A stretch of 21,893 nt of DNA. It comes from a virus. How positions within the stretch are numbered: the first letter of the stretch is position 1; every line of letters begins with the position of its first letter. Shown here one piece after another: positions 6,181 to 21,893 of this stretch. The notes beneath the pieces were generated by a model. That model was not told where the DNA came from, ran no database searches, and saw only the letters and a program-made list of their open reading frames with translations. Where the stretch lies: IMG/VR virus record IMGVR_UViG_3300035204_000146, positions 1 through 21,893 of that record; one strand, 5' to 3'. The position numbers were made by a program, and so were the translations under genes.

Positions 6181-6396
6181 ATGGATAAGAAACAGGCTAA
6201 AAGTCTATCTCCATTAATTAATAACAAAGAGGCATTGGATGCCCTTGTTACCTACGCAGAAATCCGAATGGATAGTTGCCGTACTTATCTTGAGACTGCC
6301 CAGACATGGGAGGCGGTTAAAGAGTTCCAAGGTGCCGTTAAGGAGTTGCGTAGATTTATGACACTCAGGGACGAGGTGTTAAAGAAAGCCGAATAG
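6181..6396 (+). CDS. Small helical protein of unknown function
   Basis: This 71-aa protein is predicted to be almost wholly helical, with heptad-like spacing (ALDALVTYAEIRMDSCRTYL and VKEFQGAVKELRRFMTLRDE), so it probably forms a helical hairpin or coiled coil. It has no membrane segment. It lies between the portal and the ClpP-like protease and ends 13 bases before the latter, probably in the same transcript, which starts at the element at 6151-6159. Small proteins in this slot can be portal-associated or protease-partner factors, but I recognise no family. Confidence 0.65.
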   Translation: MDKKQAKSLSPLINNKEALDALVTYAEIRMDSCRTYLETAQTWEAVKEFQGAVKELRRFMTLRDEVLKKAE

Positions 6397-6409: not shown

Positions 6410-6985
6410 ATGAGTGGTAATCCTGCGGATTCCCAATTTGTACCGCCAGCCATTTTGAATAGAGCAGCAGGTTTTTATTATTTCGCTGACAATTTCACGC
6501 TGGAGACTACTGCCCCGATTGTGGAGTGGATTTTAAGTCACAACATGGCCCCTCAGAGTAAAAGGCTACCAAACCTGACTTTGATTATTAATAGCCCCGG
6601 AGGTAATCTACATAGCTGCTTTGCTTTGGTAGATGTTATGCGAGGAAGTGCCATCCCTATACACACAGTAGGTTTAGGAATGGTAGCTTCATGTGGTGTT
6701 GTAACCTTCATGGCAGGGGAGAAAGGTCATCGAACCCTCACCCCTAACACCTCCATCTTATCCCACCAATACTCTTGGGGATCAGGCGGTAAGGAACACG
6801 AACTACTTGCGAGAGTCAGGGAGTTTGAACTGTCTACGGAACGTATGATGGCTCATTATAGGAAATGTACAGGTCTGCCCAATAAGAAGATACGAGAGAT
6901 ACTTCTACCTGCGGAAGACGTATGGTTGTCAGCCCAAGATGCTGTGAAGCATGGAATAGCCGACAATATCAAAACCCTTAAATAG
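6410..6985 (+). CDS. ClpP-like serine protease (probable prohead protease)
   Basis: This 191-aa protein has the ClpP/crotonase fold signature. LIINSPGGN (58-66) forms the oxyanion strand. Ser94 in GMVASCG is the nucleophile, His119 in LSHQYSWG the base, and Asp170 in AEDVWLSAQDAVKHGIAD completes the triad at the usual ClpP spacing. There is no signal peptide, so it acts in the cytoplasm. Between portal and scaffold, a ClpP-type enzyme is most often the head maturation protease that trims scaffold or capsid proteins during assembly. A less likely alternative is a host-targeted protease. GGTGGGAG, a good ribosome site, lies about ten bases before the ATG. Confidence 0.85.
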   Translation: MSGNPADSQFVPPAILNRAAGFYYFADNFTLETTAPIVEWILSHNMAPQSKRLPNLTLIINSPGGNLHSCFALVDVMRGSAIPIHTVGLGMVASCGVVTFMAGEKGHRTLTPNTSILSHQYSWGSGGKEHELLARVREFELSTERMMAHYRKCTGLPNKKIREILLPAEDVWLSAQDAVKHGIADNIKTLK

Positions 6986-6994
6986 GAGTATGTT

Positions 6995-7087
6995 ATGAAG
7001 AAGTATATGCGTTATTTAATTATAGCGGCAGTAGTTGCCTTAGTTGCATATAATGTAATGTTTGGCGACCCTTCAGCCGCAGTGTAG
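6995..7087 (+). CDS. 30-residue single-span membrane peptide
   Basis: ATG at 6995 has a good Shine-Dalgarno (AGGAG, 6984-6988) and opens a 30-codon frame ending at TAG 7085-7087. The peptide has a basic start (MKKYMRY), one hydrophobic helix (LIIAAVVALVAYNVMF) and a short tail, so it should insert in the inner membrane with the N-terminus inside or act as a short secreted peptide. It ends one base before the next ATG, which suggests coupling to the membrane protease. Small phage peptides like this can be pinholins, chaperones of a membrane complex, or superinfection-exclusion factors. No homology is claimed; reality rests on the ribosome site, the hydrophobic pattern and the tight fit between neighbours. 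Confidence 0.6.
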   Translation: MKKYMRYLIIAAVVALVAYNVMFGDPSAAV

Positions 7088-7088
7088 T

Positions 7089-7874
7089 ATGCTTGCCTTA
7101 AAGAGGGCAGTACGAGAAGCAAGGATGCTTCTTTTTCTTATTGTTGCTATAGCAGGGGTCATCTTCGTACCTAAAGCGGTGAACACCTTTATTCTGGACA
7201 TAGAAGAAAGTGTTGAAGAAGAAGCCCCGCAAGAAGACCCCCAAGGGTTAGAGTTCAAGAAACTAAAGGGCAACCTCTATTCTTTAACAGGATCGGTACA
7301 GCAGGGAGACTGCGAGAAAATAGCGAAGGACTTTCCTGACCGCTTTGTCGTCATCTTAGAAAGTCCGGGGGGCAGTTTAGCAGAGGGGATATGCCTAGCC
7401 TCCCACTTAAAGATAAGAGAAGTAATTACAGTAGTAAGAGACACCCCCGTTTATAACGTGGAAGGTGAAGAGGTATACACCCCCGGATTGGTGGGCGAGG
7501 ACGGAGACAAGACAAGAGTAGTCTGTGCTTCAGCTTGCAGCTTAATGTTTCTGGGCGGTGACGAGAGATACCTTATGGGTAAAGTATGGTTCGGTATACA
7601 TGGGCCAAGAACCCCAGAAGAGCATTTGAGAAACCAAGGTAAGAGTGCCATAGAGCAGTCATCCTATCAAACAGCAGGAAGAATTTTACAGACACTAAAG
7701 CAACTAGGCGTAGAGAATGAGAGGGTACGGCTATCATTTATAATGATCCCCGGAACTTCCATGTATTGGCTAAATCCTAGAGATTTCAAACTGGAGCCAG
7801 ACTTAATTCACTTGGCCACCCACTATAAAGATTTCTGGGGTTTTAGCGCAGAGAACCTAAGAGCAGGTCTGTGA
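7089..7874 (+). CDS. Membrane-anchored ClpP-like (SppA/COG3904-type) protease
   Basis: I place the start at ATG 7089, one base after the small peptide's stop; a TTG nine codons upstream at 7062 would overlap it. The 261-aa protein has a basic N-terminus, one signal-anchor helix (MLLFLIVAIAGVIFVP, residues 13-28) and an acidic linker. The ClpP-like domain follows from about residue 60: VVILESPGGSLAEG (87-100), the nucleophile region CASACSLMFLGG with Ser148, and GIHGPR with His171. The C-x-S-x-C arrangement and following FLGG match periplasmic ClpP-like proteins of the COG3904 type. The domain should face the periplasm. It could process envelope proteins or peptides handled by the transporter next door. 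Activity is unproven; the aspartate is not certain (perhaps D232). Confidence 0.75.
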   Translation: MLALKRAVREARMLLFLIVAIAGVIFVPKAVNTFILDIEESVEEEAPQEDPQGLEFKKLKGNLYSLTGSVQQGDCEKIAKDFPDRFVVILESPGGSLAEGICLASHLKIREVITVVRDTPVYNVEGEEVYTPGLVGEDGDKTRVVCASACSLMFLGGDERYLMGKVWFGIHGPRTPEEHLRNQGKSAIEQSSYQTAGRILQTLKQLGVENERVRLSFIMIPGTSMYWLNPRDFKLEPDLIHLATHYKDFWGFSAENLRAGL

Positions 7875-7875
7875 T

Positions 7876-8892
7876 ATGATTAAGTCATTCTTCTTTTCAA
7901 AAAGTAATTTTCTGTACGCTTGGACATTCCTAGCAATCATAATGGGGATAACGTGGTATAACGTAGAAATCCTCGTAGCCCATAACCGTTTTGGGCGAGA
8001 GCTATGGGACGCTATTCAAGCCTACAACGAGACTAGGTTCTGGGATTTATTCTTGGGGTTTAGTCCTGATCGTTTTGCAGACATGGTAATGATGGACGAG
8101 GATGTAGTCCCGTCCTTCGTGGAGATATTAATTCTCTATACACCTCTATCAGTGTATGCCGTTTGGCAGACAAGGCGCTTTGTATTCCGCTGGAGAGAGG
8201 CTAACACCCACTATTATTTGGAACGGTGGCAGAAGTCTAATATCAAGATAGAAGGTGCCAGCCAACGCTTGCAGGAAGACCTGATGATCTTCGGCAAGAC
8301 TTTAGAATCCTTATTTGTAGGTTTCTTCTCAGCGGGTCTGGTGCTAGTGGCCTTCCTCCCAATTCTATGGGATTTGAGTGCGGCACTACCTATCTGGAAC
8401 GGTGAGATTATACCCGGCTTCCTAGTGTGGGTAGCCTTGGGGTTCAGTCTAGGTGGTACACTTATCAGCCTCTTGTTAGGTTGGTGGTTGCCCCGTCTAG
8501 AATATAATAATCAGGTGGTCGAAGCAGTATTCCGTAAGCGCCTAGTGCATTCAGAAGATGACTTTAGCGCAAGAGATATAAACACATTATTCCCCATGTT
8601 CGCAGCAGTTAAGCGTAACTACTACAAACTGTTTAACTACTACATGGGATTTGGCGTATGGCAGACAGCTTTCGGTCTGTGTTTAGGAAACGTAGCTCTG
8701 ATCGCCCTAGCCCCAGCGTACTTCCAACAACTAGTGACTTTGGGTGTACTACAGCAGGTCTTGGGTGCCTTCAGTCGAGTGGAGTCTTCTATGACATTCT
8801 TCATCGACAGGTGGACAACCATTGTGGATTTCCAATCGGTTATCATGCGTCTTCGGGAATTTAATAAAGCACTCAAGGAGGCAGGTGTATGA
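7876..8892 (+). CDS. SbmA/BacA-family inner-membrane peptide transporter
   Basis: This 338-aa multi-span membrane protein matches the SbmA/BacA family closely by memory of E. coli SbmA. FVFRWREA...YYLERWQ (102-119), IEGASQRLQEDLMIFGKTLE (125-144), LVAFLPIL (157-164), LEYNNQVVEAVFRK (208-221) and SEDD (226-229) all have near-identical counterparts there, as do AVKRNYYKLF and the FFIDRWTTIVD end. SbmA and BacA import antimicrobial peptides, microcins and modified peptides using the proton gradient, and lack an ATPase domain, as does this protein. It is about 70 residues shorter than SbmA (406 aa), mainly at the N-terminus, so one membrane helix may be missing. It starts one base after the protease stop and overlaps the next gene by ATGA. 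Function in a phage is unknown. Confidence 0.88.
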   Translation: MIKSFFFSKSNFLYAWTFLAIIMGITWYNVEILVAHNRFGRELWDAIQAYNETRFWDLFLGFSPDRFADMVMMDEDVVPSFVEILILYTPLSVYAVWQTRRFVFRWREANTHYYLERWQKSNIKIEGASQRLQEDLMIFGKTLESLFVGFFSAGLVLVAFLPILWDLSAALPIWNGEIIPGFLVWVALGFSLGGTLISLLLGWWLPRLEYNNQVVEAVFRKRLVHSEDDFSARDINTLFPMFAAVKRNYYKLFNYYMGFGVWQTAFGLCLGNVALIALAPAYFQQLVTLGVLQQVLGAFSRVESSMTFFIDRWTTIVDFQSVIMRLREFNKALKEAGV

Positions 8893-9347
8893 GTAAGTTC
8901 ATTAAGTGGTGGTTGGAGTTCTGTCTAATACTAGGGGGGACATATACCGCATACTCTTATGGACTTCTCACAATGGTCTTCGACAATGATATAACTAAGT
9001 TATCCTATTTAATACTAGGTTTATTCTTTGCCTTCACTGCCCTCCTTGGGTTGGACGTATTCGTGAAGAAGGTAGGTGATGGCCTGCTATATGTAGGTTG
9101 GTTTATATCTGAGATTCTACTGGGTCTTGGTATGCTGGGAACCGTCATAGGTTTTATCTACATGCTAAGTGGCTCTATGGGAGGTATGGACACCTCTGAC
9201 ACTGAAACGATCAAGGAAGCCCTCACCATAATGGCCTCTGGTATGGCAACTGCGCTCTATACAACGGCAATGGGTTTAATAACCAGCCTACTCCTAAAGG
9301 TGCAGTTAATTACTCTGGAGAATCCTAATGTCTCAGGCAAGGAGTAG
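8889..9347 (+). CDS. Minimal MotA/TolQ/ExbB-family proton channel subunit
   Basis: This 152-aa protein has four hydrophobic segments (about residues 7-31, 36-58, 66-95 and 111-140). The last two carry the family hallmarks: GMLGTVIGFIYML (81-93) and MASGMATALYTTAMGLITSL (115-134), corresponding to the pore helices of TolQ, ExbB and MotA. The large cytoplasmic loop of ExbB/TolQ and the long tail of ZorA are missing, so this is a stripped-down version. Such proteins form pentamers around a dimer of the MotB/ExbD type and turn proton flow into movement. A very strong ribosome site (AAGGAGG, 8876-8882) precedes the ATG. It overlaps the transporter by 4 bases and the partner gene by 20. Confidence 0.82.
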   Translation: MSKFIKWWLEFCLILGGTYTAYSYGLLTMVFDNDITKLSYLILGLFFAFTALLGLDVFVKKVGDGLLYVGWFISEILLGLGMLGTVIGFIYMLSGSMGGMDTSDTETIKEALTIMASGMATALYTTAMGLITSLLLKVQLITLENPNVSGKE

Positions 9348-9951
9348 GTTCAAGAGTTCTACAGCCTTTCAGGATTTATTATTTAATATGCTGCTGGGCT
9401 TTGTGTTTCTTTTTATGGTGGCTTTACTGCTTATCAACCCCATAACAAAGAAGGCAGATGTTCCCAAGAAGGCCGAGTATCTGATTACGCTCAGTTGGGC
9501 AGACGAGTCCACTACTGATGTAGATTTATGGGTTAAAAGCCCTAGCGGTAAGGTCGCTTCCTTCATCAACAAGAACGTGGGTCTACTGCATTTGGAGAGG
9601 GATGATCTAGGACTTAGAAACGATACTGTCACTGATCGTTTAGGTAAGGAACTTGAAGTTCGGATCAATGAAGAGACAGTCACACTACGAGGCATTGAGG
9701 CAGGTGAATACGAGGTCATGGCCCATATATATCGTAAGCCTGTAAATGAAACTGGTGGGGATATTACAATCAAGGTGATGCAGATTAATCCCTATGGCGT
9801 TAGATACATAGGCACCCTTTCTTTCACTTCAATGGGCCAAGCAATCAGTTTGGTGAGGTTTGAATTAGATGCAGACGGTAAGTTTTTGGGCTTTAATAAC
9901 TTACCTTCTAACTTCATCCCTTCCTATCGTGTTTCGGAGGCGGGGGCATGA
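9328..9951 (+). CDS. MotB/ExbD/ZorB-like partner with a DUF2135/YfaP-like domain
   Basis: This 207-aa protein has a short cytoplasmic start, then one membrane helix (FQDLLFNMLLGFVFLFMVAL, residues 14-33). Asp16 sits where MotB, ExbD and ZorB have their essential proton-relaying aspartate. The periplasmic part (about 48-190) is beta-rich and includes LSWADESTTDVDLWVKSPSG and LHLERDDLG, resembling DUF2135/YfaP-type domains rather than the peptidoglycan-binding OmpA-like domain of MotB. GGAG about ten bases before the ATG supports the start, which lies inside the end of the channel gene, as expected for a stoichiometric pair. The domain may grip an envelope target that the stator pulls or twists. 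The YfaP-like call is from motif resemblance only. Confidence 0.72.
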   Translation: MSQARSRFKSSTAFQDLLFNMLLGFVFLFMVALLLINPITKKADVPKKAEYLITLSWADESTTDVDLWVKSPSGKVASFINKNVGLLHLERDDLGLRNDTVTDRLGKELEVRINEETVTLRGIEAGEYEVMAHIYRKPVNETGGDITIKVMQINPYGVRYIGTLSFTSMGQAISLVRFELDADGKFLGFNNLPSNFIPSYRVSEAGA

Positions 9952-10427
9952 GCCTAGAAGAATATCAATTAATTATCCCTGCCTGTATCCTATTAACAGT
10001 GTGCGTATCTGTGTGGGCCTTACTGACCACCAAGAGGGTGAGGACACTAGTCATACTGATCCCCATCCTTGTTACGGCAGGGTATGGTTCTTTTAGTTCA
10101 GTAAATTCAATCTTAGGCTATCCCACCGAAGCCCACTTCACAGAAGAGCATGTGTACCTACACCACCGAGTAGATAAGGAAGCCGATAAAATCTACGTGT
10201 GGGCATTGACCAAAAGGCGCACCCCAAGGGCATTTGCTATCCCATACAGTAAAGATTCAGAGAAGAAATTGAACGAAGCCCAAGGGAAATCCCAAAAAGG
10301 CATCCCCCAGATTATTGAAGGTAAGGACAATAAGAACCGAAAGGTAAAAGAGTCCGACAGCAGGGACGAATCCCTTAGAATATATGATTTTAACATGAGC
10401 GCAGACATTCGTAAGAACGAGGATTAA
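9948..10427 (+). CDS. Two-helix membrane protein of unknown function
   Basis: This 159-aa protein overlaps the previous gene by ATGA. It has two membrane helices near the N-terminus (about residues 6-26 and 31-52), then a soluble region with a beta-like segment (HVYLHHRVDKEADKIYVWAL), a Lys/Arg-rich stretch and a charged tail with many Asp, Glu and Lys residues. I do not recognise a family. With a short loop between helices, both ends should be on the same side of the membrane. Its tight linkage to the channel pair suggests it is a third subunit or a regulator of that complex, perhaps a cytoplasmic plug or adaptor, but this is inference. Confidence 0.72.
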   Translation: MSLEEYQLIIPACILLTVCVSVWALLTTKRVRTLVILIPILVTAGYGSFSSVNSILGYPTEAHFTEEHVYLHHRVDKEADKIYVWALTKRRTPRAFAIPYSKDSEKKLNEAQGKSQKGIPQIIEGKDNKNRKVKESDSRDESLRIYDFNMSADIRKNED

Positions 10428-10430
10428 TTA

Positions 10431-13400
10431 GTGAGTTTAACACCTACAGAACTAGTAAAAAATGCAGCCAAACACGCTGAGAATGAGAGTAAGACAGGTT
10501 ATGACCCTGTATCAGGCGTTTGGTTTTCTCACGATTCCCCTGAAGGAGGTTTAGCTACGATTGGCTACGGACACAAAGGGGGTTCCTCAGATGAAGTAGC
10601 CTCATGGAGTATAGGTGGTTTAACGGACGAGCAGGTCAATAAGAACTTTGTTAAGGATTGGGATGAAGCCTTCCAAGTTGCTGCCAACCAATACAATGCA
10701 GCCCATGAAGATTCCTTCTCTGACCTGCCAGAAATAGGCCAAGCCCTACTTTCTGAAATTGCCTTCAATGTAGGTGGGGTAAACAATAGTTCAGGAGGGT
10801 TCGGCTGGCCTAACCTAGTGAAAGCTATCAAGGAAGACGACCTTGCTGGTATGAAGAAAGAGATTAATCGCACGTACACTGACTCTGATGGCAATGAACA
10901 TTCAATGGACAGACGTGTAGGCTTTCTACGTGATGCCATAGATGACTCTGTGGGTGCGCCTCTGACAGGTAACGCCCCCAACCCAGCTAACGGTGAAGAC
11001 GTAGGTTCCATAGAAGCCTTACCTGATAGTTACAGCCACAAGATAGGCGACTTCTTATCTGGTCTTATGGGAGGCAACCAAGCCACACGAAATCGCAGAA
11101 CACAAACAATTAGTGGCCTGATGGATTGGACACCTGTGGGTGGTAAGGATTTATGGGATGAAGGGAAGTGGGAGGCCGAGAAGGGTGATGTAGGTGACGG
11201 TGCTTTAGATATGTTCATGGGAGGTCTAGACTTTATACCCGGAGCTACCGTTGTAACTAAACCTGCAAAAGCAGCGGCAAAAGTAGTTTCTGAAGGTGCC
11301 GATAAAGCTACAGGCTTAATGTCAGCCAAACTAAGGGAGGCAGGCGAGAGCCTGTTCACCCCAGAGTCTATGGCTGCGGCTAAACGTGTTGCTGGTAGCG
11401 ACAGGTCTAGGGAAACCTTAGTGTACATGCCCCCCGAAGATTTCCTTAAAATGGCTGACGCAGGAGAAGATGCGAGCAAGGCGGCAGGAGTCAAGGCTCT
11501 ACGGGAAGAGGGTAAGCAATTCTCAGATGTGCCGTTTCTCAGCATAAGTGATAAAGGGGAAGGTACAGTGCAGGTAGTGGGGCATGAGGGCCGCCACCGA
11601 GCAAGGCAAGCCATCGAAGAAGGTGTGGCTACTATGCCTGTACGTTTAAACAGCGTGTACCACCCTAAAGGTGGGTATGAGTTTAGATGGGGGGAGTTAG
11701 CAGACGAGCCTATAGAGTCCCGTCCATACAAAATGGTAAGTGAGGACGGGGAGACTACTTTAGCCCTACCTAAGAATGAATATTTCCCCTACGAAACATT
11801 GGATTCAGTGCCTGCCACAACTTCAGAACCTGAAGATATATTAGGCGCACTCGTAGAAGATGCCGAGGTAGAGGCCATAAATGCTGCCGCAGGTGTATCT
11901 GATCTCCCTAGAGCAACGTCCCGAATAGACGAGGCTAAAGGTTGGGATTGGTCAACAGAAAAACCACAAGAATTTAACACTGGAGGAATGGTAGGCATGA
12001 TGACACCTACGCTAGAAGTAATCGTAGGACATGACGAGGAATCAGGCAATCCTATTCCAGCAGGTTCTACAGACAAAGAAGTACGAGATGATGTTGAAGC
12101 ACTACTTAGTGAAGGTGAGTATGTCTTGCCTGCTGATGTAGTTAAGTGGCATGGCTTAAAGCACATCCAAGAGATGCGTAACGAGGCTAAAGCTGGCCTT
12201 ATGTGCATGTGTATGGATGGCCAGATCAAGACACCTGAGAGTGACGAAGACTACGAAGAGCCTTCGGATGATGAAGATGTAGAAGTTACTGAAGAAGGCA
12301 ATGAGATTGAAGTAGTCGATAACACTGACGAGAAGAAGATCAAGGCGGCTGATGGTGGTCTTGTTACTTCTGGAGAAGATGGAGGCACTTCCTCTCTTGG
12401 TTACTTGATCCGTAGACTGGTACGAGGCCCAGATGGTCGTATGATTGTACGTTACTTTGATCCCCAGACAGGTATGTACGTAGATGATCCTACAGGCTAC
12501 GAAGTATTAGATCAAAGTGCTTACAACTCACTAACTGGCCCCGGTATGCAGGAACCTGATTCAGGTGAGGACACGGCAGCAGAAGAAGTGGTCGAGGAGG
12601 CTGCTACTACTAGTGGAGGTGGTAGTGACAAGGATGATGATAACTCATTTGAGGCTGCTACCCCAATAGAACGTAACCAGTGGAACGACTACGGCTTTAG
12701 TGACCCTAACACTCTAGCAACTATGGGTGCAGGGCTATTAGGTGGCCCTCTTGTCGGTGGTCTTACTCGGTTTGGCCAAAGCCACAATAATGCTGAAGCT
12801 GTAGATGCAGCCAGAGAAGACTTAGGCATGGAAGGCTTAGGCTGGTGGGATAAAGTCAAGGGTGGTTTCACAGGTAAATATAATACAGGTGAAATTGGCC
12901 GAGGAACCATAGGTGAGAACGACTATACGGCTGGGTTCGGTGGCCGAGTTCTGACTGATGAAGATGGTAATCAGATCACTACCCTAACCCCTAACGAATA
13001 CAAGAAGCGTACAGCGGCACAAGACATTGATATTAGCAAGCTGCCCAGCGCCACCGATAGCTCTTCAGGTTCTGGCATTATGTCGAGTCAAGTTAACGAC
13101 ACCCCTACTTCCATTTCCGATGATGTAGCAGAGAAAGAAGATGGGTACAGTACTCCGGCCTACACTGACCACAGTAGTGATGTAGAGATGGACACTGACT
13201 TTGGTTCTTGGTGGGATGACATAGAGACTGACGAGGTAGAGGTAGACACAGCACCCCATGCTGAAATTTCAGGGGAGTCCCGCTACTTTGTTCATGACAT
13301 GGAGCCAGAGGACTACACCTTAGAGGCTGGCCTTGTCCCTAGAGACACTGCCTCCCCAACGGACGAAATACAAGAAGTTGCGGATACCTTAGTCAACTGG

Positions 13401-18258: not shown

Positions 18259-21200
18259 ATGACAGGTTATACTAGACAATCAGTAGCATCCATAATCAAC
18301 GGTGAGGACATTACAGCACCCCCGTTGAATGCGGAATTTAATACACTTCAATCTGCCTTTAATGGTACTTCTGGACACTCCCATGATGGTGGAACAGGTA
18401 ATGGCCCCAAGATCAATCTGGGAACATCATTAACTGGCTACCTCCCTTCCTTACATGGTGGTGTAGGTGGTTTGAACAATATGGCAGCTTCCACAGCGCC
18501 TACTACCACAAACGATAGTGCAAGTGGCTATGCCCCCGGCTCTATGTGGCTGGATACTACGACAGGACGTTTCTACCTCTGTGTCGTTAACGTAGCCAAT
18601 AATGCAGTGTGGACTGAATTGGTTGGCGTACAAGAAGCTAACCGTATTGTGCCTCATACTAATGATGCTGTTAGCTTAGGCACCACCACCTATAAGTTCA
18701 AAAATGGTTACTTCACAGGTACACTTTCAGCACCCAATGTTACTGCAACCTCTGCTCTAGCCTCTACAGGTACGCTCACAGTGTCTGGGGCATCTACCCT
18801 TGCCACCGTACAGGGTACTACCATAACGGCCACTACGGGCTTTGTAGGAGGCTTAACGGGGGATGTAGTAGGTAACGTCACAGGAAACCTTACTGGTAAC
18901 TCAACAGGTAATCTTACAGGTAATGTAACGGGTAATGTAACCGCAGGATCAGGTACTTCCACATTCAATGATGTAACTATTGATGGCACATTGAATATGA
19001 ATGGTAACTCCTCTGCTACTATTACTAACCTGACTGACCCTTCTAATGCACAAGATGCCTCCACCAAGAATTATACAGATACTCAAGATGCTCTGAAGCT
19101 AAACCTATCAGGCGGCACTATGTCTGGTGCGGTTGCTATGGGCAGCAATAAGATTACAGGTCTAGGTACACCCACAGCGTCCAGTGATGCAGCTACTAAA
19201 GGCTATGTCGATCAAGAAGTAAGTGCAGTAATTGACTCCGCACCGGGAGCTTTAGATACGCTAAATGAATTGGCTGCTGCTCTAGGTGATGACGCTAACT
19301 TCAGCACCACTATCACTAACTCTGTAGCCACTAAACTACCTAAAGCTGGTGGTACTATGTCTGGTGACATTGCAATGGGTACTAATAAGGTTACTGGCCT
19401 TGATACTCCCACAGATAGCGCAGACGCAACCACCAAGGCTTATGTAGATAACGCAGACGCTACTAAGGTTTCTAAGTCAGGCGATACCATGTCTGGCAAC
19501 CTGTCCATGAGTTCTAATAAGGTGACTGCACTAGCTAACCCTACTGCAAGTACAGATGCTGCCAATAAGAGTTATGTAGACAGCCAAGATGGTCTTAAAG
19601 TTACTAAGTCAGGTGATACCATGTCAGGTAACTTGGCTATGGGTTCCAACAAGATCACTGGGTTAGGTACGCCTACAGCTAATACAGATGCAGCCAATAA
19701 GACATACGTAGACTCCATCTTAGGTAGCTCTGCTGCTGCATCTACTTCCGCTGCAAATGCGGCTACCTCAGAGTCAAATGCTGATACCAGTGCATTAAAT
19801 GCTGCCGCATCAGAAGCTAACGCCTTGTCTTACAAGAATGCTACTGCTGCAAGTGCTACTGATGCCGCAAACTCAGCCGCCTCTGCTGCCAGTGCCTTAG
19901 ACAGTTTTGATGACAGATACTTAGGCTCCAAAGCATCTGCACCTAGCGTAGACAATGATGGTAACGCCCTAATTGAAGGTGCGCTATATTTCGACAGCAC
20001 CAGCAACGGTATGCAAGTATATGATGGTGCCAACTGGATTGCTGCATCATCCTCTGGCAACGTATCCTTCCTCAAGTATAAGTATGTCGCCACAAACAAC
20101 CAGACCACATTCAGCGGCCAAGATAGTAATGGCGTTACCCTGTCCTACACAGTCGGCAACATTGTCGTAATACTTAACGGCATAGTCTTAGATGCCTCAG
20201 ACTTCACTGCCACTAGCGGTACATCAATCGTTCTGGCTAGTGGTGCAAGCACAGGTGACGAACTATCCATCCGAGCATACAAGTCATTCACCACAGCCGA
20301 TATGGTTCCAGCATCTACTGGCGGTACTTTCGGTGGTGATGTTGACATTAGCGGCACAGTCACGGCTGATGGTTTGAATGTTAACACCATCGTGCAAGCT
20401 GTTTCTCAGTCGGGTGGAGTGCTGTTCGGCTTTAATAATCAGTACGGAATGCAGTTAAAACAATACTCAACTTCTGGTGGCGTTCCATACGCTTCAATTG
20501 TTGCCCCTGACGACAACAATGGGTGGTTATCCATTGAGGTTGGTGGAAGCCAAACTGAAGCGGCTCGCTTTGCCGCCAACGGAGACATCAGCTTCTACGA
20601 CACCACAGGCAGCGCTAAGTTCTTCTGGGATGCGTCTGCGGAGTCTTTGGGAATCGGTCAAGGTGTGTTCAGCGGTACACAAGCCTTAAATCTTAAAGGT
20701 GAAGGTATAGCTATCAAGAATGACAAATCTGGTAGCAACAACAACTGGTCACTGATACGGAACACAGGGACATCTTCAACCTCTAACATTAGCTTTGTTA
20801 CTGGCGCTGGCGAAGCAATGGTTCTTGACCACAACATGAACGTGGGGATTGGTTGTTCGCCTAATGCTAGTGCTGATTTGCACGTTGCTGATACTTCAGA
20901 TGCTCGTATATGGCTAGAGGCAACCAGTGGCGACACAATGGAACTTTACGCTGGGACAAATGTTTCTCTGTTTAATCGGAGTAACAATGCTTTAACTTTT
21001 GGTACAAACAACACAGAGCGACTTCGTATTGACTCAAGCGGCAATGTTGGGATTGGTACGAGCCTATCTAACCCTGAAAAGAAGTTGCACATTTTTGATA
21101 GCACACAAGCAAACCAAGCTATTCGATTTGGCAATCCAAGTGCTACGCCTTATGGAGAAATTAATTATAACTCAACGGGTGTTGAGCATTTATATATTAG

Positions 21201-21893
21201 GTCAAAAGGCACGACAACTGGTTACGGCAATATTGTGTTTGAAACTGGTTCGGCACTTGATGAAGCCATGCGTATCGACTCTAGCGGTAATGTGCTTGTT
21301 GGTAAGAGTACTACATCCGTAAGCACTGCTGGCACATTTATAGGTGGTGGTGGTAATAATGGGCTTGTTGAAATCACAAGAGATGGTAACTACCCATTAA
21401 GGCTTAATCGTAAAACTTCTGATGGTCAGATTTTGCGCTTTGATAAGGATGGCAGCACTGTGGGGAGTATTGGCGTAGACAACGGAGACAACCTGACAAT
21501 TTCAGGAAACTCCTCACACGCAGGACTAAACTTTAGCGATAATGCAATTAATCCTTATAAAAATGGTAGTTATACCGATGGAACTTGTGATTTAGGCTGG
21601 TCAGGTAGTCGCTTCAAAGACGCTTACCTCTCAGGCACAGTGAATGCTGGTGGTCTGGTGGTTAATGCAGGCGCTTCCAACGTAGTTGCCACTTTTGAAA
21701 GCACCGATGGTGTTGGCGCAATCGAACTAAAAGACTCGTCAGGTACTTGTGAACTGAGTACCTCAAGCGGAGGTTTCAGCGTCCAACCAAATGGCGGTGT
21801 AAGCGCACTGACGGTTGCCAGTAATGGTGATGTTGATATAGGCTCATTTTCATCCTCTGGTGCCAGTACAGGTGTGCATTTTGATGTGGGTGG
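18259..21893 (+). CDS. Tail fibre / receptor-binding protein (cut by right edge)
   Basis: The ATG directly follows the nozzle stop, and the frame is open to the end of the window (about 1211 residues). The N-terminus (SVASIINGEDITAPPLNAEF, then GHSHDGG) resembles the virion-anchoring start of many phage fibres. Then come a KFKNGYFTGTL module, a run of GNxTGN repeats (about residues 202-229), four MSGxxxMGxNKxTxL...YVD repeats (about 283-486), an Ala/Ser-rich coiled coil, and a DDRYLGSKASAP...YFDST head-of-shaft module (about 550). The distal part has RIDSSGNVGIGT-type repeats and a second FKDAYLSGT module near 1117. That architecture usually ends in a peptidase S74 self-cleaving chaperone, which would lie beyond the edge. 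The protein binds the host surface. Confidence 0.9.
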   Translation, partial: MTGYTRQSVASIINGEDITAPPLNAEFNTLQSAFNGTSGHSHDGGTGNGPKINLGTSLTGYLPSLHGGVGGLNNMAASTAPTTTNDSASGYAPGSMWLDTTTGRFYLCVVNVANNAVWTELVGVQEANRIVPHTNDAVSLGTTTYKFKNGYFTGTLSAPNVTATSALASTGTLTVSGASTLATVQGTTITATTGFVGGLTGDVVGNVTGNLTGNSTGNLTGNVTGNVTAGSGTSTFNDVTIDGTLNMNGNSSATITNLTDPSNAQDASTKNYTDTQDALKLNLSGGTMSGAVAMGSNKITGLGTPTASSDAATKGYVDQEVSAVIDSAPGALDTLNELAAALGDDANFSTTITNSVATKLPKAGGTMSGDIAMGTNKVTGLDTPTDSADATTKAYVDNADATKVSKSGDTMSGNLSMSSNKVTALANPTASTDAANKSYVDSQDGLKVTKSGDTMSGNLAMGSNKITGLGTPTANTDAANKTYVDSILGSSAAASTSAANAATSESNADTSALNAAASEANALSYKNATAASATDAANSAASAASALDSFDDRYLGSKASAPSVDNDGNALIEGALYFDSTSNGMQVYDGANWIAASSSGNVSFLKYKYVATNNQTTFSGQDSNGVTLSYTVGNIVVILNGIVLDASDFTATSGTSIVLASGASTGDELSIRAYKSFTTADMVPASTGGTFGGDVDISGTVTADGLNVNTIVQAVSQSGGVLFGFNNQYGMQLKQYSTSGGVPYASIVAPDDNNGWLSIEVGGSQTEAARFAANGDISFYDTTGSAKFFWDASAESLGIGQGVFSGTQALNLKGEGIAIKNDKSGSNNNWSLIRNTGTSSTSNISFVTGAGEAMVLDHNMNVGIGCSPNASADLHVADTSDARIWLEATSGDTMELYAGTNVSLFNRSNNALTFGTNNTERLRIDSSGNVGIGTSLSNPEKKLHIFDSTQANQAIRFGNPSATPYGEINYNSTGVEHLYIRSKGTTTGYGNIVFETGSALDEAMRIDSSGNVLVGKSTTSVSTAGTFIGGGGNNGLVEITRDGNYPLRLNRKTSDGQILRFDKDGSTVGSIGVDNGDNLTISGNSSHAGLNFSDNAINPYKNGSYTDGTCDLGWSGSRFKDAYLSGTVNAGGLVVNAGASNVVATFESTDGVGAIELKDSSGTCELSTSSGGFSVQPNGGVSALTVASNGDVDIGSFSSSGASTGVHFDVG
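18852..18942 (+). repeat. Short tandem repeats encoding GNxTGN in the fibre
   Basis: About six imperfect 12-base units of the form GGTAAYNTNACA/G encode G-N-x-T repeated (VGNVTGNLTGNSTGNLTGNV). The repeat probably forms an extended triple-stranded beta shaft, and slippage could change its length. Confidence 0.7.
19020..19715 (+). repeat. Roughly 130-base tandem repeats in the fibre shaft
   Basis: One partial unit (19020-19100) and four longer units begin near 19106, 19334, 19468 and 19597. Each encodes GGTMSG or SGDTMSG, then a short M-x-x-N-K-(I/V)-T stretch, (L/A)-x-x-PT, and DA(A/T)(T/N)K-x-YVD. The unit following 19106 is separated from the next by a GALDTLNELAAALGDD insertion, a known companion motif in phage fibres. 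The last two units are the most alike, suggesting recent duplication. Confidence 0.8.

Follow-up and report, generated by a model that had tools for sequence, protein, structure and literature searches.

Marine and rhizobial phages carry fixed-order genes for a predicted proton-powered inner-membrane motor, often with a protease and a peptide importer

Results

Gene content of the locus

The window, by which we mean the whole stretch of DNA analysed (21,893 nucleotides), is a fragmentary virus record of 21.9 kb. Its portal and coat proteins shared 63–69 % identity with those of Roseobacter phages CRP-3, CRP-212, CRP-235 and CRP-738, and approximately 57 % identity with those of SAR116 phage HMO-2011. 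These identities argue that the source virus is a podovirus of the HMO-2011 type whose probable host is a marine alphaproteobacterium.

Seven forward-strand genes were called between positions 6410 and 10427. The first, prot (6410–6985), encodes a predicted cytoplasmic serine peptidase of the ClpP family (S14). It is followed by a 30-aa membrane peptide with a single helix (6995–7087), clpP2 (7089–7874), encoding a putative membrane-anchored, periplasm-facing ClpP-like protease with a TM segment at approximately residues 13–31, and a gene for a proton-coupled peptide importer of the SbmA/BacA type without TM0 (7876–8892). The last three genes are motA (8889–9347), encoding a short, 152-aa motor subunit of the MotA/TolQ/ExbB type, tolR (9328–9951), encoding a motor B subunit with one TM segment and a periplasmic beta-sandwich, and tm2 (9948–10427), encoding a membrane protein with two helices and a small beta-domain on the periplasmic side. 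A sequence-only reading had described the six genes from the membrane peptide to tm2 as closely packed, and ORF calls confirmed each spacing: gaps of one base at 7088 and 7875, and overlaps of 4 bases (ATGA, 8889–8892), 20 bases (9328–9347) and 4 bases (ATGA, 9948–9951). One-helix peptides matching the 30-aa peptide in size and position were seen in L001, L125/L126 and L242. For clpP2, translation could begin earlier, at an in-frame TTG (7062). The gene after tm2 begins with GTG at 10431 and extends to 13595. It had been read as a lysozyme-bearing internal protein; it is indeed an internal virion protein, but the lysozyme call was weak (PF00959 E 0.0017, 19.1 bits against a cut-off of 22.3). 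Further along, a repeat-rich frame behind the tail gene (18260–21893), open to the contig end, probably encodes a tail fibre.

A predicted motor trio with a TerD-like periplasmic domain

The motA product matched PF01618 at 28.7 bits (cut-off 22.9, E 1.3e-6), and residues G81, G84, T126 and G129 were invariant in its alignment (A3). In tolR, D16 lies within the TM segment and was invariant across 44 sequences; TolR, ExbD and MotB carry a protonatable Asp at the equivalent position. The cassette therefore has in common with TolQR, ExbBD and MotAB a PF01618 A subunit with conserved glycines and Thr, a B subunit with an invariant Asp in its N-terminal TM segment, and adjacent A and B genes. Those systems have been described as 5:2 ion-driven motors or 'generic ion transporters' (PMC12505986). 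The cassette differs from them in being phage-encoded, in having a TerD-like beta-sandwich in place of the TolR/ExbD or peptidoglycan-binding domain, and in an extra, apparently obligate gene, tm2. No ExbD/TolR, OmpA-like or peptidoglycan-binding Pfam domain was detected in any of the 44 tolR members, no Pfam family matched tolR, tm2 or clpP2, and none of the Tol-Pal/Ton partners TolA/TonB and TolB/Pal was found among the cassette genes. By sequence, motA and tolR are best placed within the proton-driven MotAB/TolQR/ExbBD motor class, as a subfamily whose output domain is new and whose third gene would be tm2.

The AlphaFold model of tolR comprised one helix and a beta-sandwich (pLDDT 90.7). 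TerD was the best structural match of the sandwich (Z 11.2, 9.4 and 9.2, the first over 136 residues), other matches reaching Z of approximately 6.8 at most apart from a pair of large complexes at about 9.8. By profile comparison, tolR and TerD showed no kinship in sequence, and the apparent likeness is one of fold only. Leucocidin matches in the Foldseek list were rejected as artefacts of long, poor alignments, and Foldseek of the viral library gave no informative name. The 19-row tolR alignment contained no stretch conserved enough for scanning, and closer subsets were used instead. The tolR motif DxDxxVxxPxG...RDxG was also seen in a virion structural protein (PDB 11pb chain C, residues 273–314), at an E value of only 0.41. 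The tm2 model comprised two helices and a beta-domain (pLDDT 85.9), for which the matches were OB-like only and weak (Z below 7). Positive-inside residues suggest that the tolR, clpP2 and tm2 domains are periplasmic.

The peptide importer and the proteases

The SbmA product matched PF05992 at full length (match 13–333, E 2.1e-72). The proton-relay ladder of SbmA consists of glutamates E193, E203, E269, E276, E287 and E378 (PMC13316013). The first five are identical in the window protein and the sixth is replaced by D, whilst some relatives have Q at 203. The full-length domain and the relay glutamates are thus common to the window protein and the SbmA/BacA (SLiPT) transporters. Unlike Escherichia coli SbmA, the window protein is phage-borne, adjoins proteases and a motor, and lacks the N-terminal TM0, the first ~77 residues of the E. 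coli protein having no counterpart. We predict that the importer works, is driven by protons and so has an energy source of its own. Because its proton-relay glutamates are kept, it probably does not depend on the motor for energy, and the motor therefore probably serves a step other than powering SbmA. The SbmA tree required at least two label changes, and one group from trio-bearing phages fell with bacterial SbmA outside the main phage clade, which points to at least two recruitments of SbmA by phages.

Alignment of 19 clpP2 sequences (A2) revealed invariant SxGG, CASxC and GIH motifs. Comparison with the prot family gave E 4.6e-6 (hhalign, 86 %), and S148, H171 and D232 were present. Where the window has an anchored ClpP-like enzyme, contigs G020 and G022 have an N-terminally anchored, DegS-like Trypsin+PDZ protease ~0.8 kb from SbmA, and Rhizobium phages an HtrA-like gene, as counterparts of DegS/HtrA. 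In G036 a Trypsin_2 gene lies 85 kb away from SbmA. Two subtilase-family genes beside SbmA in a 200-kb trio-bearing viral contig (L235:8244–11407) perhaps form a third type of protease, or else belong to the virion. A conserved protein of ~90 aa is encoded directly upstream of clpP2 in large marine phages (L021:6759–7043 and 17 other loci); it has one hydrophobic N-terminal helix and two conserved Cys, and is possibly a further cassette member.

Insertion site and a probable seventh cassette gene

We examined 61 viral contigs that encode the internal virion protein as well as the 71-aa ORF (6181–6396 in the window). In most, the two genes abut (−17 to +104 bases). Ten contigs had larger gaps; in the six inspected, the gap held a divergent internal-protein ORF and no other cassette. 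The same empty gene order appears in the annotation of CRP-3, CRP-212, HMO-2011 and RHph_N3_13. Compared with these 61 portal relatives, only the window carries the 4.0 kb insert (6410 to 10427) at this site. Integration into the virion operon is peculiar to the window's lineage, because the 61 relatives have the same operon without the cassette. That the genes are built into the virion operon, as first read, accordingly holds for the insertion site of this phage but not as a defining feature of the cassette. In a near-identical contig (L242), prot and the small peptide are kept and clpP2 is broken after ~20 codons. The ORF that follows there (L242:4207–4605) encodes one TM segment followed in description by EPKPKIEPKVEPK repeats, reminiscent of a TonB/TolA linker, and the contig ends inside it.

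The insert includes prot, which had been taken for the prohead protease flanking the cassette. Its product satisfies the ClpP (S14) assignment, with PF00574 (E 6e-29) and the Ser-His-Asp residues S94, H119 and D170. It is absent from the head operon of the 61 portal relatives, and four contigs (G006, G011, G014 and G020) have it alongside a T4-type S77 prohead protease, for which reasons we rejected a prohead role. Elsewhere, 200 bp or less separates prot from another gene of the cassette (tm2, clpP2, motA or sbmA) in 29/35 viral loci. Because the site is empty in the portal relatives and prot travels with the cassette elsewhere, prot is very probably the seventh cassette gene, and the cassette would span 6410–10427.

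Conservation, gene order and co-occurrence in viruses

Loci were gathered by one SbmA search of IMG/VR and three tolR searches, with profiles widened by Rhizobium phage members found independently in a first tblastn (E 1e-9 to 2e-22). A comparison of gene order in relatives had been proposed with the sequence-only reading. The order motA-tolR-tm2 was present in 126/134 viral loci. Among testable loci, tolR had motA immediately before it in all 129 and tm2 immediately after it in 126 of 131, and sbmA had clpP2 immediately before it in 44 of 54. The modules themselves were arranged in more than one way, as clpP2-sbmA-motA-tolR-tm2 or as motA-tolR-tm2-(90-aa protein)-clpP2-sbmA in different phages. 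Since the arrangement recurs in more than 100 viral contigs at protein identities of 25–74 %, it is not attributable to chance. Most other phages carry the cassette in replication or metabolism regions or as an isolated operon, and a mobile phage accessory, rather than a virion module, best explains this distribution.

Co-occurrence was assessed in 23 whole contigs chosen by tolR alone. SbmA was present in 14 of them, including 12 of the 14 contigs of at least 60 kb; in cultured phages, by comparison, tblastn found it in 3 of 50,697 records. A protease, either clpP2 or trypsin-like, was found in 12/14 SbmA carriers and 0/9 non-carriers (Fisher p 7e-5, a rough value because lineages are not independent samples). 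Eight carriers had clpP2, four others a Trypsin_2 protease and none both. Of the remaining two carriers, G030 breaks off immediately behind SbmA, and G033 has a pair of subtilase genes close to SbmA. SbmA and both protease types were absent from trio-only contigs measuring 316 and 112 kb. These data show, at the level of gene content, a recurrent partnership of the trio with SbmA and a periplasm-facing protease. The idea that the genes form one co-inherited unit is borne out by this partnership and by the kept order; relatives were not scattered without co-occurrence.

Among cultured phages, tblastn of tolR matched 27 Rhizobium and Sinorhizobium phage records. The trio lies among replication or unknown genes in 16-3, NV1.1.1, TM3_3_14B, X2_25, N3_13, I1_9, I1_18 and RL2RES, and is preceded by a trypsin/HtrA-like gene in 16-3, TM3_3_14B and X2_25. 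Phage 16-3 is temperate, and its MotA (p038) was confirmed separately by ZorA/MotA models. SbmA had no match in the Rhizobium phage records, nor did blastn of the cassette against cultured phages or tblastn of clpP2 against phages return a match. The SbmA-less trio contigs and the Rhizobium phages suggest that the motor can act without an importer or ClpP-like protease.

Bacterial relatives of the trio

Orthologous chromosomal genes occur in the same order, motA-tolR-tm2, in 70/76 bacterial loci. This operon is undescribed in Pfam and differs from the phage trio in its longer MotA (~170–250 aa and more) and in its partner genes; it lies near genes for PQQ-alcohol dehydrogenase or L,D-transpeptidase. 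In example loci, neighbours included PqqB, PqqE and PQQ-dependent alcohol dehydrogenase with an ABC transporter, TonB-receptor genes, and YkuD, DUF302 and vWA/FHA genes. In L105, L123 and L051 the undescribed operon sits inside clusters for PQQ biosynthesis and quinoprotein dehydrogenases. Across 299 Pseudomonadota genomes, tolR was found in 13, the PQQ-ADH ABC binding protein in 40 and both in 10, against 1.7 expected (p 1e-7, kinship ignored). In the tolR tree, with MAG loci L045, L046 and L119 counted as phage from their gene content, phage rows were far more diverse than bacterial ones and the labels needed only two changes. This diversity and the few label changes argue that the tolR trio is an old phage family with no recent pick-up.

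Discussion

Our analysis indicates that many marine and rhizobial phages carry, in fixed order, genes for a predicted proton-powered inner-membrane motor, often with a protease and an importer. The best explanation, to which we assign a probability of about 50 %, is a proton-driven inner-membrane motor coupled to periplasmic proteolysis and peptide import, for envelope quality control or peptide recycling. The proton gradient would drive the motor to move the periplasmic domain of tolR together with tm2, and this motion may drive or position envelope substrates. Membrane-anchored clpP2 would cut periplasmic proteins or peptides, SbmA would bring the fragments into the cytoplasm, and the cytoplasmic ClpP-type prot would finish them. 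In the infected cell, the outcome would be envelope quality control and peptide recycling whilst virions are made. This purpose, be it quality control of the envelope or salvage of peptides, is an inference; the bacterial copies, which lie beside PQQ/quinoprotein genes and not peptide-uptake genes, count against the explanation. A more daring version falls somewhat short of even odds in our estimation. It holds that phages of alphaproteobacteria and marine bacteria have a rotary proton motor of their own, with a TerD-like head in the periplasm, which powers an undescribed virus-encoded machine for remodelling the periplasm during infection. Protease and SbmA would be interchangeable accessories of this machine, and the bacterial copies near PQQ genes a sister branch of a motor class that phages have long kept.

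Superinfection exclusion and the energizing of uptake are the main rivals of this explanation. Under the first, a Zorya-like proton motor would sense or perturb the envelope at a second injection and the protease would destroy injected proteins, for which periplasmic proteases are well suited. The trio is a portable accessory, temperate phage 16-3 included, and in PADLOC the best matches of the MotA proteins were to models of ZorA (E 3e-6; 16-3 p038 E 1e-8). Beyond this weak similarity and a mobile, phage-related setting, the resemblance to ZorAB ends: the 152-aa MotA lacks the long cytoplasmic ZorA tail, the B subunit has no ZorB match and no detectable peptidoglycan-binding domain, and the cassette has proteases and a peptide importer but no effector gene of the ZorC/D or ZorE kind. 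We rejected Zorya membership on these grounds. Since the importer has no obvious defence role and the chromosomal trios sit in PQQ clusters, a phage-borne defence is unlikely.

The second rival, a Ton-like energizer that would bring more scarce nutrients or cofactors into infected cells, draws on the bacterial trios beside TonB-receptor, ABC and PQQ-alcohol-dehydrogenase genes, and on the PQQ-ADH binding protein in 10 of the 13 trio-carrying Pseudomonadota genomes. We regard it as doubtful, as the cassette proteins all lack a linker of sufficient length to extend to the outer membrane and the phage partners are a peptide importer and proteases instead of TonB receptors. Nor do we favour independent host-derived genes merely travelling together, a motor trio and a separate SbmA-protease pair. 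The trio does occur without SbmA, and clpP2-sbmA lies ~30 kb from it in the 342-kb contig G011, but co-occurrence recurs in unrelated phages with varied arrangements, at least two SbmA origins and replacement of the protease, making such an account improbable. A virion or lysis device, the other idea of the sequence-only reading, is very hard to credit: the window cassette lies between portal and internal virion protein genes, would be co-transcribed late and yielded no convincing internal promoter when one was looked for, but the cassette is missing from the same virion operon in 61 relatives, and most other phages carry it elsewhere.

To our knowledge, phages are known as users of Tol and Ton and not as carriers of such a motor of their own. 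They hijack these systems for entry, as fd pIII does on TolQR (PMC10424213). Within the open-licence literature searched, we found no phage reported to encode such a motor. If the proposed coupling of the motor to periplasmic proteolysis and peptide import is true, viruses would reprogram the host envelope by means of the proton gradient. Cultured carriers, Sinorhizobium phage 16-3 foremost, make the function of the motor directly testable, as well as, by way of the orthologous operon, that of a still unnamed motor in bacteria with a link to PQQ-dependent dehydrogenases.
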